Translations under genes and position numbers: made by a program
Shown: one piece after another, positions 14,645 through 21,855 of the stretch
Layout: the number at the start of each line of letters is the position of its first letter
Numbering within the stretch: position 1 is the stretch's first letter
The notes under the pieces: generated by a model
The model's input: only the letters and a program-made list of their open reading frames with translations
Database searches by the model: none
Told to the model about the DNA's origin: nothing
Source: a virus
DNA: 34,289 bases
Strand: one strand, 5' to 3'
Virus record (IMG/VR): IMGVR_UViG_3300031726_000028
Span: 1-34,289 of that record

Positions 14645-15094
14645 TTACTCCTCAGGTGATTTGCGCCAGCGCTTGCGGCAGGTAATGCATTGCCTGCCGG
14701 TGCGCCCCGCCATGCGATAGGTGTTCGCCTCGTCGTAGGGATGACCTTGAGGACAATGCGTCCGTTGCCCTTTCGGGCCGCGACATTCGGCGATGACCGC
14801 GAGAACCTCGTCAGCCTTGGCCCCGCGCCTTTCGCCAAGCCATGGGCGGACGAGAGCTATGAACTCTGCGACATGGGCGGCGTTGGAGATCGACCAGCGA
14901 TAGAGCGTCTTATGTCCATCCTGACGAGGCTCGACGCTGACAGCACCCCTACCGATAACGGCACAGAATCGATCTACGACATCGCGGTCGGTCATGCCGA
15001 CAACCACTTCGGCCGAAGTCTTACCTCGAATGCCAAGCCAGCCTTCACCTTCAAAAACCCCGGCCGCCCATGCAATTTCTTGTGCTCTATCCAT
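14645..15094 (-). CDS. LAGLIDADG homing endonuclease
   Basis: 149 residues. Residues 8-21 (AWAAGVFEGEGWLG) are a LAGLIDADG-type helix with the acidic metal ligand in FEGEG. One such motif means the enzyme should act as a dimer. Residues about 113-140 (CPQGHPYDEANTY, then CITCRKRW) form a likely zinc knuckle seen in other phage endonucleases. The gene lies between major capsid and a small capsid-adjacent gene, and ends 3 nt before the start of the latter. It has its own leader with a structured, potentially masked ribosome site (CCGGGAGA, 7 nt from ATG). Base composition is slightly more AT-rich than its neighbours. Confidence 0.85.
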   Translation of the reverse strand: MDRAQEIAWAAGVFEGEGWLGIRGKTSAEVVVGMTDRDVVDRFCAVIGRGAVSVEPRQDGHKTLYRWSISNAAHVAEFIALVRPWLGERRGAKADEVLAVIAECRGPKGQRTHCPQGHPYDEANTYRMAGRTGRQCITCRKRWRKSPEE

Positions 15095-15169
15095 TTTGAA
15101 TTCTCCCGGAATGCGGACGGCCCGTGCCGGGAGACACGGGCCGTCCTACCTGCGGTGTACGGCCGCAGG
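15095..15169 (-). promoter_or_regulatory. Structured RNA leader of the LAGLIDADG gene: SD versus anti-SD hairpin
   Basis: In the minus-strand RNA, 5' to 3': a 7-bp hairpin (arms 15169-15163 and 15155-15149, 7-nt loop); 2 nt; a perfect 12-bp hairpin (15146-15135 with 15126-15115) whose 8-nt loop is TCTCCCGG (15134-15127); 5 nt; the ribosome site CCGGGAGA (15109-15102); 7 nt; ATG. The loop is the exact complement of the ribosome site over 8 bases. The two pairings could form a strained pseudoknot or be exclusive alternatives. The same layout, with different stem sequence, precedes the HNH gene at 21384. Confidence 0.85.
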
Positions 15170-15186: not shown

Positions 15187-16710
15187 CTATTGCACGACCA
15201 ATACGCGGAAAGCGTTGGCGTCGAGGACCTTCGCCATGTTTCTCCAGAACGCAAAGAATCCTCTCTGTCCGGTCGGGAACCTATTCGTGGCTCCGAATAG
15301 ATGCGGGATCAACTCGATGTCCATCCCGATCCGGTCCACAATCTTGTAGTAGCGCCAGTCTCCCAGCACGGCGATCTTCTGTGCGGTCACCTGCGTCGCC
15401 GACAGCGCCGAGCACTCGTTCGCCGCGTAGCCGAGCAGCTCCGCGCCGGTGTTGCCGCCGCGGGGCACGTTGTTCTGCAGACCCTGAGCCAGGTAGACCC
15501 ACAGGTTCGCGCCGCCCGCCGTGTCGAACTGGCGGATCTTGTTGAACTGGGCGCGGTTGGCGACCCACTGGGCGCGCGGGCGGAACCGCGGGCCGAGCGC
15601 GTTCTCCATCGCGTACAGATCACCGACGGCGAGCGTGGCCACGGCGCCGGTGGTGACTGTGGTCGTCGCGCCGGTGATGACGCCGGAGGGGGCGTTAGTG
15701 CCGGTACCGGTCGAGAACTGGGTGGCCTCCAGGTCGTCCTTCGCGTCCTGGATGAGCCCGGCCAACTCCTGCTGGATCTGGCCCCAGTCCTGGGTGAGCT
15801 CGATGCTGACCGGCACGAAGCACTGCGCTCGCACCGTGGTCAGGGTCGGCTGCGCCAGGGTCGGGGAGTTGTCCGTCGCCTCCAGACCTTCAGTGGCGTA
15901 CGAGGCGGTGACGCCGGCGCTGGTGACGCCACGCCACTCGTTGGTGCCCGAGATCTGCTCCACGTTCGCGATCGCCCGGTACGGATTCACCGACAGGTTG
16001 CTCGTGGGGATGATCGTCGAGTCCAGCTGGTACGGCACCGCGAAACCACCCGAGGCACCCGTGCCCACGGACAGTGCACGGGTTGCCTCGACGGCCCGGG
16101 ACTCGCCCGGCGTCAGGTTCGCGAAGCCGGCCGAACCGCGCATCGCGGCCGACATCAGCTTCGTGAACGCCCGCTGGTAGTCCTTCGACCCGGTGACGAG
16201 GATGCGGCGGGCCAGGTCCTGCGCCTGCCAGTCCTCGTCGTCAGCGCGGCGCAGCAGCTTCGTCACGTGCTGCTGGGCGCGCGCCTGGTCGCCGCCGACG
16301 TGCTCGACGGCCGGGAAGTGGGAGATCTCCACGGCCCGCATGGCCCGCTCGCACATCTCGCGCCCGGCCCGCTGCGGATCCAGCGGGTTGAAACGCACCT
16401 CCGAGAGGTCGTACACCTCGGACTCGGACATCCGGGAGATCAGCGGGGTCGCCCGCGGCCGGTTGCGCAGACCGCCGATGTCCGCGCCGTTCTCCCGGGC
16501 CTGCGGGTCCTGGGCGACCTGGATGATCCGGGCGTCCCGGGCCTCCAGCTGCGCCAGCACGCCCTCGTGCTGCTCCAGCTCGGTGTTGTTGCGGTCCCAT
16601 TCCTCCTGCACGTCCGCCGGGAACGACTCGTCCCGGAACTCGTCGTGCTGCTCCTGGATCCAGCGCCGCAGTTCAGCGACCCTGTCAATCCTTTCCTGCC
16701 GGGTCATCAT
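15187..16710 (-). CDS. Major capsid protein (HK97 fold)
   Basis: 507 residues. Residues 1-65 form a charged helical region (ERIDRVAELRRWIQEQHDEF, then NNTELEQHEGVLAQLEARD) typical of the HK97 delta/scaffold domain that the protease removes. The rest is an HK97-fold capsid: SGGFAVPYQLDSTIIP, the E-loop/P-domain region, TQDWGQIQQELAGLIQDAKD, FSTGTGTNAPSGVI, and near the end IAVLGDWRYYKIVDRIGMDIELIPH and GQRGFFAFWR. Start ATG 16710 overlaps the protease stop (ATGATG). A GAGGGG site lies upstream. Directly after its stop come two hairpins that belong to the endonuclease leader. Confidence 0.95.
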   Translation of the reverse strand: MMTRQERIDRVAELRRWIQEQHDEFRDESFPADVQEEWDRNNTELEQHEGVLAQLEARDARIIQVAQDPQARENGADIGGLRNRPRATPLISRMSESEVYDLSEVRFNPLDPQRAGREMCERAMRAVEISHFPAVEHVGGDQARAQQHVTKLLRRADDEDWQAQDLARRILVTGSKDYQRAFTKLMSAAMRGSAGFANLTPGESRAVEATRALSVGTGASGGFAVPYQLDSTIIPTSNLSVNPYRAIANVEQISGTNEWRGVTSAGVTASYATEGLEATDNSPTLAQPTLTTVRAQCFVPVSIELTQDWGQIQQELAGLIQDAKDDLEATQFSTGTGTNAPSGVITGATTTVTTGAVATLAVGDLYAMENALGPRFRPRAQWVANRAQFNKIRQFDTAGGANLWVYLAQGLQNNVPRGGNTGAELLGYAANECSALSATQVTAQKIAVLGDWRYYKIVDRIGMDIELIPHLFGATNRFPTGQRGFFAFWRNMAKVLDANAFRVLVVQ

Positions 16711-20973: not shown

Positions 20974-21384
20974 TTATGCCTGCTCGCGTAGGTGCTCACG
21001 CTTACAGTCGCGGCAGTAGCCGCGAGCAGGCACCGCATGGCAGCTCGAGCACAGCTTGAAGGCGTTCACGTTGCGTGACCGAAGCACGGGCGTTGCTTGC
21101 GCCCTCGGCTGGCGACTGCGACCAACGTAGCCACGCACGCCCTTGGCGTTGTTGCACCTGAGGTGGGCGATCTGCAGGTTGCCGTCCTCGTGCGTCCCAC
21201 CTGCCACGCGGGGCACGATGTGGTCCACGGTGGCCGCGTCGTCGCTCTCGTACACGGACAGGGCTGGGTCGATGGGCTGATGGCAGATGCCGCAGGTCCA
21301 GCCGTCTCGTTCACCGATCCGGATCTTGTGGGCCACTGTCCCGACTCGGGGCAGTCCAGTTCCGGGCATGCGTCGTCCACTCAT
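20974..21384 (-). CDS. HNH endonuclease with C-terminal zinc knuckle
   Basis: 136 residues. HNH core: TCGICHQPID (C31, C34), ATVDHIVPRVAGGTHEDGNL (D54-H55, N69), then AHLRCNNAKG (H74, C77, N79). A second cysteine pair set CSSC and CRDC near the C-terminus probably binds zinc. The start has an AGGAGA site 7 nt upstream of ATG, inside a structured leader nearly identical in layout to that of the LAGLIDADG gene. HNH proteins beside terminases can help cos cleavage (HK97 gp74), but the leader suggests a mobile homing gene. Both roles remain possible. Confidence 0.88.
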   Translation of the reverse strand: MSGRRMPGTGLPRVGTVAHKIRIGERDGWTCGICHQPIDPALSVYESDDAATVDHIVPRVAGGTHEDGNLQIAHLRCNNAKGVRGYVGRSRQPRAQATPVLRSRNVNAFKLCSSCHAVPARGYCRDCKREHLREQA

Positions 21385-21460
21385 GTTGATCTCTCCTGGA
21401 ACGCGAACAGCCCCACACCAGGAGATGTGAGGCTGCTCTGACTCGGGGAGCTACCCCGAG
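21385..21460 (-). promoter_or_regulatory. Structured RNA leader of the HNH gene: SD versus anti-SD hairpin
   Basis: In the minus-strand RNA, 5' to 3': a 7-bp hairpin (21460-21454 with 21448-21442, 5-nt loop); 6 nt; a 10-bp hairpin with one G-U pair (21435-21426 with 21417-21408) whose 8-nt loop is TCTCCTGG (21425-21418); 8 nt; the ribosome site CCAGGAGA (21399-21392); 7 nt; ATG. Loop and ribosome site are exact complements. Compared with the copy at 15095-15169 the stems are different in sequence, and the loop/SD pair carries a matching C-to-T and G-to-A change, so pairing is kept. Confidence 0.85.
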
Positions 21461-21480: not shown

Positions 21481-21855
21481 TCACCACGCACGGGTGGTGA
21501 CCAGCTTCGACTTGCTCGCTGCGGGCGCTCGCACTCGTCCGCGCTTGGCGTTGAGGTAGCGCGCACCACTGCGGTCTGAGCAGCGGCTGTGCTCAGCCTG
21601 CGTGTTGCTCAGCGCGTTGATCTGCGCGTCACTCCACCCGAGCCGGCGCGCCTGGTCCCTGCCCACGATGTGCCCCACCACGAGCGACCGCGGGTTGACC
21701 CGCCTCGTCCCCGGCAGGTACCGCTTGGCCCCGTAGTCGATGGCCCCACCACAGCGTGCGCACGGTAGGCCTGCGCGGATGTGGTGCTGCCGGATGGTGG
21801 TGCGCCACGCTGCTGTGCTGAGCAGTGGGTCTGTGCCCTTGCTGGCCCTGCGCAT
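21481..21855 (-). CDS. HNH endonuclease
   Basis: 124 residues. C32-x2-C35 (CARCGG) precedes the core RSLVVGHIVGRDQARRLGW, where GHIV supplies the catalytic His, then SDAQINALSNTQAEHSRCSD with the Asn and the second His, a pattern common to phage HNH proteins near terminases. The C-terminus is basic. The start codon directly follows a hairpin that contains its own ribosome site. Two HNH genes in a row before terminase is unusual; one may be the packaging helper and the other a mobile gene. Confidence 0.85.
   Translation of the reverse strand: MRRASKGTDPLLSTAAWRTTIRQHHIRAGLPCARCGGAIDYGAKRYLPGTRRVNPRSLVVGHIVGRDQARRLGWSDAQINALSNTQAEHSRCSDRSGARYLNAKRGRVRAPAASKSKLVTTRAW

Follow-up and report, generated by a model that had tools for sequence, protein, structure and literature searches.

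RNA hairpins are known to sequester the ribosome-binding sites (RBS) of T4-type homing endonucleases, e.g. I-TevI, segB and mobE (PMC2988022, PMC3014915). The homing endonuclease gene seg43, an insert in Aeromonas phage 25, has a very stable hairpin immediately before its SD (PMC2988022). Two other kinds of phage leader share traits with the one studied here. The SAS/ESAS elements of Cluster K mycobacteriophages, and an analogue in Cluster EF, consist of a conserved RBS sequence, with an upstream inverted repeat in about half of the cases (PMC3203893, PMC7302621). In the T4 gene 32 leader, and in H-type pseudoknots that hide the SD, a pseudoknot in a phage leader is linked to translation control.

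The DNA analyzed here, hereafter the window, is a whole virus record of 34,289 bases, whose minus strand holds most genes. Two endonuclease genes of the window are each preceded by a leader made of two hairpins, P1 and P2, and an SD:

21442..21460, minus strand: P1 hairpin of the HNH leader, 7 bp, CTCGGGG (21460-21454) with CCCCGAG (21448-21442), loop TAGCT (21453-21449); sequence and covariance model match
21405..21438, minus strand: P2 hairpin of the HNH leader, 13 bp, 5' arm GAGCAGCCTCACA (21438-21426), 3' arm TGTGGGGCTGTTC (21417-21405)
21425-21418, minus strand: P2 loop of the HNH leader, TCTCCTGG, the anti-SD
21392..21399, minus strand: SD of the HNH leader, CCAGGAGA, complementary at every position to the P2 loop TCTCCTGG
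20974..21384, minus strand: HNH endonuclease gene led by the module, 136 aa (PF01844, E 3.2e-11)
15149..15169, minus strand: P1 hairpin of the second copy, CCTGCGG with CCGCAGG, loop CCGTACA (15162-15156); covariance model match of 83.7 bits
15115..15146, minus strand: P2 hairpin of the second copy, GGACGGCCCGTG with CACGGGCCGTCC, loop TCTCCCGG; fold z-score -4.9, no shuffle equally stable
15102..15109, minus strand: SD of the second copy, CCGGGAGA, complementary at every position to the P2 loop TCTCCCGG
14645..15094, minus strand: LAGLIDADG-like endonuclease gene led by the second copy (leader 15169-15094), 149 aa (phrog_5046, E 1.6e-23)

In the HNH leader, P2 is followed by the linker GCGTT, the SD, 7 nt and the ATG at 21384 (minus strand). 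The initial annotation had assigned 10 bp to this second hairpin, but its stem has 13, two of them G-U. The same order of elements in the two leaders, which it had also proposed, is borne out by the sequence, by the covariance model and by a brute scan of both strands of the window for a hairpin with an 8-nt loop/SD match and a correctly spaced start codon, which returned these two places only. The compensatory change that it had noticed, C to T in the loop and G to A in the SD, is real: both TCTCCCGG/CCGGGAGA and TCTCCTGG/CCAGGAGA are exact complements. The HNH leader has a fold z-score of -5.2, with no shuffle equally stable, and its predicted duplex energies are -14.6 kcal/mol for loop:SD vs -7.4 for anti-SD:SD. 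In the most stable fold, the P2 stem runs on into the loop, in competition with the SD pairing.

The LAGLIDADG-like label derives from relatives annotated as LAGLIDADG/HNH endonucleases and from a sequence motif; the 149-aa protein had no match in Pfam. Its gene is an insert that separates the major head protein gene (15187-16710) from the gene that follows. A relative of this protein is encoded in Mycobacterium phage LittleE (our locus L309, 1150-1683), on the opposite strand and within the region that the major capsid gene covers. That capsid gene is annotated with a putative group I intron; this is another mode of occupying the capsid locus. On the upstream side, the HNH leader adjoins a second HNH-like gene (21481-21855, minus strand, 124 aa, phrog_338), whose SD lies inside a 6-bp hairpin, CGGAGG-TGA-CCTCCG, just 5' of the start codon; this is another kind of SD hiding than capture by the P2 loop.

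About 125 leader-gene pairs were gathered from IMG/VR contigs and actinobacterial genomes. The pattern TCTCCYGG...CCRGGAGA...ATG was found at 118 or more IMG/VR loci; among the pattern loci listed, about one third had long stems flanking the loop, preceded by a P1, and about two thirds had no P2 stem. A covariance model, R1, was built from 30 leaders, leaving out the HNH copy of the window, and it recovered that copy with 49.4 bits (E 8.4e-10); across contigs, its E-values were as low as 1e-20. There is usually one copy per contig, and two in the window and a few others. In a scan of genomes, four true copies were found, all in Streptomyces, plus one chance match. Streptomyces matches to R1 below about 40 bits, which are mostly ordinary terminators, were left uncounted; true copies occurred, alongside such weak terminator-like matches, in about 10 of 394 Streptomyces genomes, and in 6 of the 395 genomes of a class-wide sample, the reference genome not being counted and weak terminator-like matches again being present.

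At its curated gathering scores, Rfam 15 (HEARO included) had no match in the window nor at the leaders of 13 loci; weak matches by E-value at the window locus were judged meaningless. A blastn search of named phages with the consensus gave only chance matches and, where Xkcd426 ends, a plain hairpin. The module is absent from the nuclease loci of Wofford, Jada, GAL1, WinkNick, Coruscant and LittleE, so that not every endonuclease gene of actinobacteriophages has the leader, and it was not significant in phiScoe45 and Jflix2. That the system is undescribed, as first suggested, agrees with the Rfam result and with the literature searched, in which we found no description of the leader; one may exist beyond the literature covered. 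Sequence comparison supports well that these structured RNAs, 5' leaders from viruses and prophages of actinobacteria, make up one family.

Covariation, which had been set beforehand as the test, was overwhelming over the collected family, by shuffles as well as by permutations. Among 96 distinct aligned copies, 98.4% of the P1 and P2 cells were paired (77.1% after shuffling), with 344 double changes vs 79 and a covariation score of 0.537 vs 0.137 in shuffles. Changes on both sides were seen for 17 of the 19 P1/P2 pairs, and all 7 positions of P1 covary. When pairing partners were slid by 1-3 columns, paired cells dropped to 42-59%.

The pairing between loop and SD varies in the same concerted manner. 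Family SDs are of the CCRGGAGA type and variable, and dozens of loop/SD pairs were found, e.g. TCTCCCGG/CCGGGAGA, TCCAAGG/CCTTGGA, GTCCTCAAG/CTTGAGGAC, CCAGAGATG/CATCTCTGG and TCCCTAGG/CCTAGGGA. In a second scan that fixed GGAG alone and left the loop and the rest of the SD free, 6 or more consecutive loop nucleotides were complementary to the SD region in 82 of the 95 distinct matches, with many different sequences. We then compared each P2 apex, taken as a fixed window (an earlier version, with over-extended stems and short loops, was weak), with its own SD and with those of other copies. The mean match was 7.57 nt with its own SD, reaching at least 6 nt in 98% of cases, vs 4.8 nt and 26% with the others; the maximum of 10,000 permutations was 5.29. 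The 5' side of P1, used as a control region, showed no cognate effect with the SD in the permutation test. Since the match with the own SD lies beyond all permutations, the loop-SD pairing is maintained by compensation. On average, the loop:SD duplex is predicted at -14.6 kcal/mol vs -8.4 for anti-SD:SD, and it is the stronger one in 95 of 99 copies.

By this covariation, the P2 loop pairs outside its own hairpin, as in an H-type pseudoknot. The geometry is compatible with such a fold: the linker between P2 and SD is mostly 4-6 nt, the P2 stem has 11-14 bp, and stem 1 would be about 12 bp long. A loop-SD helix of 8 bp that uses up every loop nucleotide, set on a stem of 12-13 bp, is sterically tight, so that only about 6 pairs probably form at once. 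We consider it probable, from these sequence patterns, that the leader of the cassette hides the SD in this way and throttles translation of the cargo. The P2 loop would capture the SD 4-6 nt beyond the base of P2, and the resulting H-type pseudoknot would hide the ribosome-binding site; cargo translation would then be lowered, or timed and delayed within the phage operon. That the pairing is repressive is inferred by likeness to the RBS hairpins of T4.

The role of P1 calls for another explanation. A P1-like hairpin was present in all 129 copies examined, with a stem that varies freely and a loop which, in about 119 of them, is U plus a 4-nt palindrome (among the 129: GAUC 73, AGCU 35, GCGC 6, AAUU 4, GUAC 1). 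SD sequestration does not explain this palindromic loop, which may possibly form a kissing dimer or the site of a dimeric protein. We also considered that the P1 loop might supply the stop codon (TGA/TAG/TAA) of the upstream gene, and rejected this: most of the upstream ORFs whose GC3 looks coding stop short of P1, in another frame than its loop. As the upstream gene ends before P1, a simple melting of the leader by its ribosomes is not evident.

The genes led by the module are mostly nucleases. Among 124 led proteins scanned, 74 matched HNH, smaller numbers matched HNH_3, endonuclease VII and GIY-YIG-type domains (MUG113/T5orf172), and one matched TnpB; a purpose-built HMM recognized HNH in 83 of 125. 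Together, five types of nuclease (HNH, endonuclease VII, GIY-YIG, LAGLIDADG-like and TnpB) make up about three quarters of the led genes. Nucleases are usually a small share of phage genes, from which we infer that they are enriched behind the leader. Conversely, 75 of the 106 HNH-like ORFs in the collected loci carry it, a proportion that is no estimate for phages at large because the loci were picked for the leader; the HNH-like ORFs without it are mostly small (about 95 aa) and of another HNH type. The initial proposal that the module accompanies homing endonucleases irrespective of fold holds for these five types, but not as an exclusive association: roughly one led gene in four is no recognizable nuclease. 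The search for the module before non-endonuclease genes, suggested at the same time, found 10 connector-like genes (by a weak match), 3 XRE regulators, 4 glycosyltransferase-like genes, 1 HicA-like gene and genes of unknown type.

Some of these cargoes deserve mention. The TnpB-like gene (L236:585-1892, OrfB_IS605 E 2.6e-25) has a leader, within the region L236:503-1892, with loop CCCCGAGA and SD side TCTCGGGG; on the same contig, a second leader precedes a Zn-finger ORF. The connector-like proteins (75-81 aa, with an HWPADDP-type motif and a weak head-tail connector match) were found in L191, L208, L215, L224, L230, L245, L251, L273, L281 and L060. L215 also contains sequence resembling a capsid-protease fusion gene of Rhodococcus phages.

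Comparison of related phages indicates that leader and gene travel together. As for a free-standing homing endonuclease cassette, the insert is missing at the same site in relatives: L291-L293, whose head protein is 81-94% identical to that of the window, have neither the leader nor the LAGLIDADG-like gene, and hold a plain strong hairpin there. At this same site, the leader is followed by an unrelated HNH gene in L093. Likewise, L227 and L048 have the leader and unrelated ORFs at a place where the flanking genes of L253 overlap as TGATG. In L023, L024 and L211 (L199 being related), flank and leader are nearly identical and the cargo is different. In L279 the leader is followed by an ORF of 9 aa; its relative L198 has an HNH gene at this place. 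Given that uninserted relatives lack the leader and that L279 has the leader and no HNH gene, the leader comes in together with the cassette and can persist once its cargo is gone. The insertions are clean, falling between the upstream stop and the downstream start codon. Leader and adjoining ORF would form one cassette, placed between stop and start codons, and carrying mostly nuclease genes of several folds, plus other accessory phage genes. Of the two origins first envisaged, a shared mobile module or a convergent one, the shared module, gained together with its gene, is retained; convergence is not, one homologous family being likelier because the P1 loop class, the P2 base, the linker and the order are conserved.

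Could these leaders be explained otherwise? GC-rich phages commonly contain hairpins and SD complements, and the TCTCCYGG...CCRGGAGA...ATG pattern occurs in IMG/VR also without stems, but the covariance model E-values down to 1e-20, the shuffles, the slides and the permutations refute a chance origin, to which we give practically no credence. That P2 is mainly an intrinsic terminator of the upstream gene, which attenuates the cassette while loop-SD pairing is secondary or cooperating, deserves more attention. P2 stems do look like actinobacterial terminators, most weak Streptomyces matches to R1 are plain GGCCC-type hairpins, and the relatives without the LAGLIDADG-like insert have their plain strong hairpin at that very place. 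However, P2 is followed by GCATT or GCGTT and the SD, with no U tract; the SD, mostly 4-6 nt away, leaves no room for a promoter, so that cargo expression would depend on read-through. Nor does termination account for the cognate covariation of loop and SD, or for a P1 with a fixed loop class, and we judge it improbable as the main function. We find it quite improbable, too, that the leader is kept as a recombination boundary at the DNA level, where homologous exchange swaps phage cargo. The near-identical flanks and leaders of L023, L024 and L211 with differing cargo, and the clean insertion between stop and start codons, speak for this reading, but stems and loops have diverged with compensation, which is not expected under selection for DNA identity.

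The other alternative concerns P1, which would be the sensor of a switch responding to a ligand, a protein or an RNA: its loop would bind a dimeric factor or kiss an RNA, and so control the capture of the SD by P2. P1 is indeed present in every copy, with a near-constant loop on a variable stem, and plain sequestration has no need of it. Against this stand the lack of a common metabolic theme among the led genes and of a candidate factor, and the usual presence of a single module per contig; we hold such a switch to be possible, if on the unlikely side. Sequestration of the SD by the P2 loop remains our preferred reading. It could be extended, as a tentative and rather speculative idea, to one RNA lock placed on unrelated mobile cargo (the five nuclease types including TnpB, regulators and capsid accessory genes), with a common release signal read by P1, cargo being exchangeable behind the leader without harming the phage.

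The leader represents a family of structured RNAs whose covariation is unusually strong and which is missing from Rfam and from the literature searched. It ties translation control to gene mobility, as it arrives with unrelated inserted genes and is absent where the gene is absent, and a common safety lock of selfish phage genes becomes a testable idea. It also provides a handle for locating inserted cassettes, unannotated ones included, in actinobacterial phages.

Among known systems, SAS/ESAS differ by a 13-bp RBS sequence of the GGGATAGGAGCCC type and upstream inverted repeats of 17 bp, which the leader does not have. SAS is a fixed sequence in multiple copies, whereas the SD of the leader varies with its loop and the leader is usually in single copy. 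An identity of the two was discarded: the ESAS of TM4 has no loop complementary to SAS (by 5 nt or more) and no significant match to R1. The T4 gene 32 pseudoknot is located far upstream and is a nucleation site for protein binding, whereas in the leader the SD itself would be one strand of stem 2. We also set aside an identity with the seg43 leader, whose loop (region of ATGATAAAAT) is not complementary to its SD, GAGGAG, and which has no P1. The closest likeness is with the T4-type leaders (I-TevI, I-TevII, I-TevIII, segB and Aeh1 mobE), where phage homing endonucleases have, at their translation start, an RNA structure able to hide the RBS (PMC2988022, PMC3014915). As in these, the structure of the present leader is predicted, from covariation, to pair with the RBS of a nuclease gene. 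In the T4-type leaders, however, the SD lies inside the stem of one hairpin and late promoters are involved, while here it lies 3' of P2 and would be captured by the P2 loop. The leader is further distinguished by its additional upstream P1, by forming one homologous family, by its association with several nuclease folds and with non-nucleases, and by its occurrence in actinobacterial phages. By analogy, it probably acts like the RBS hairpins of T4, but with a different architecture, a single homologous family and a different range of cargo.
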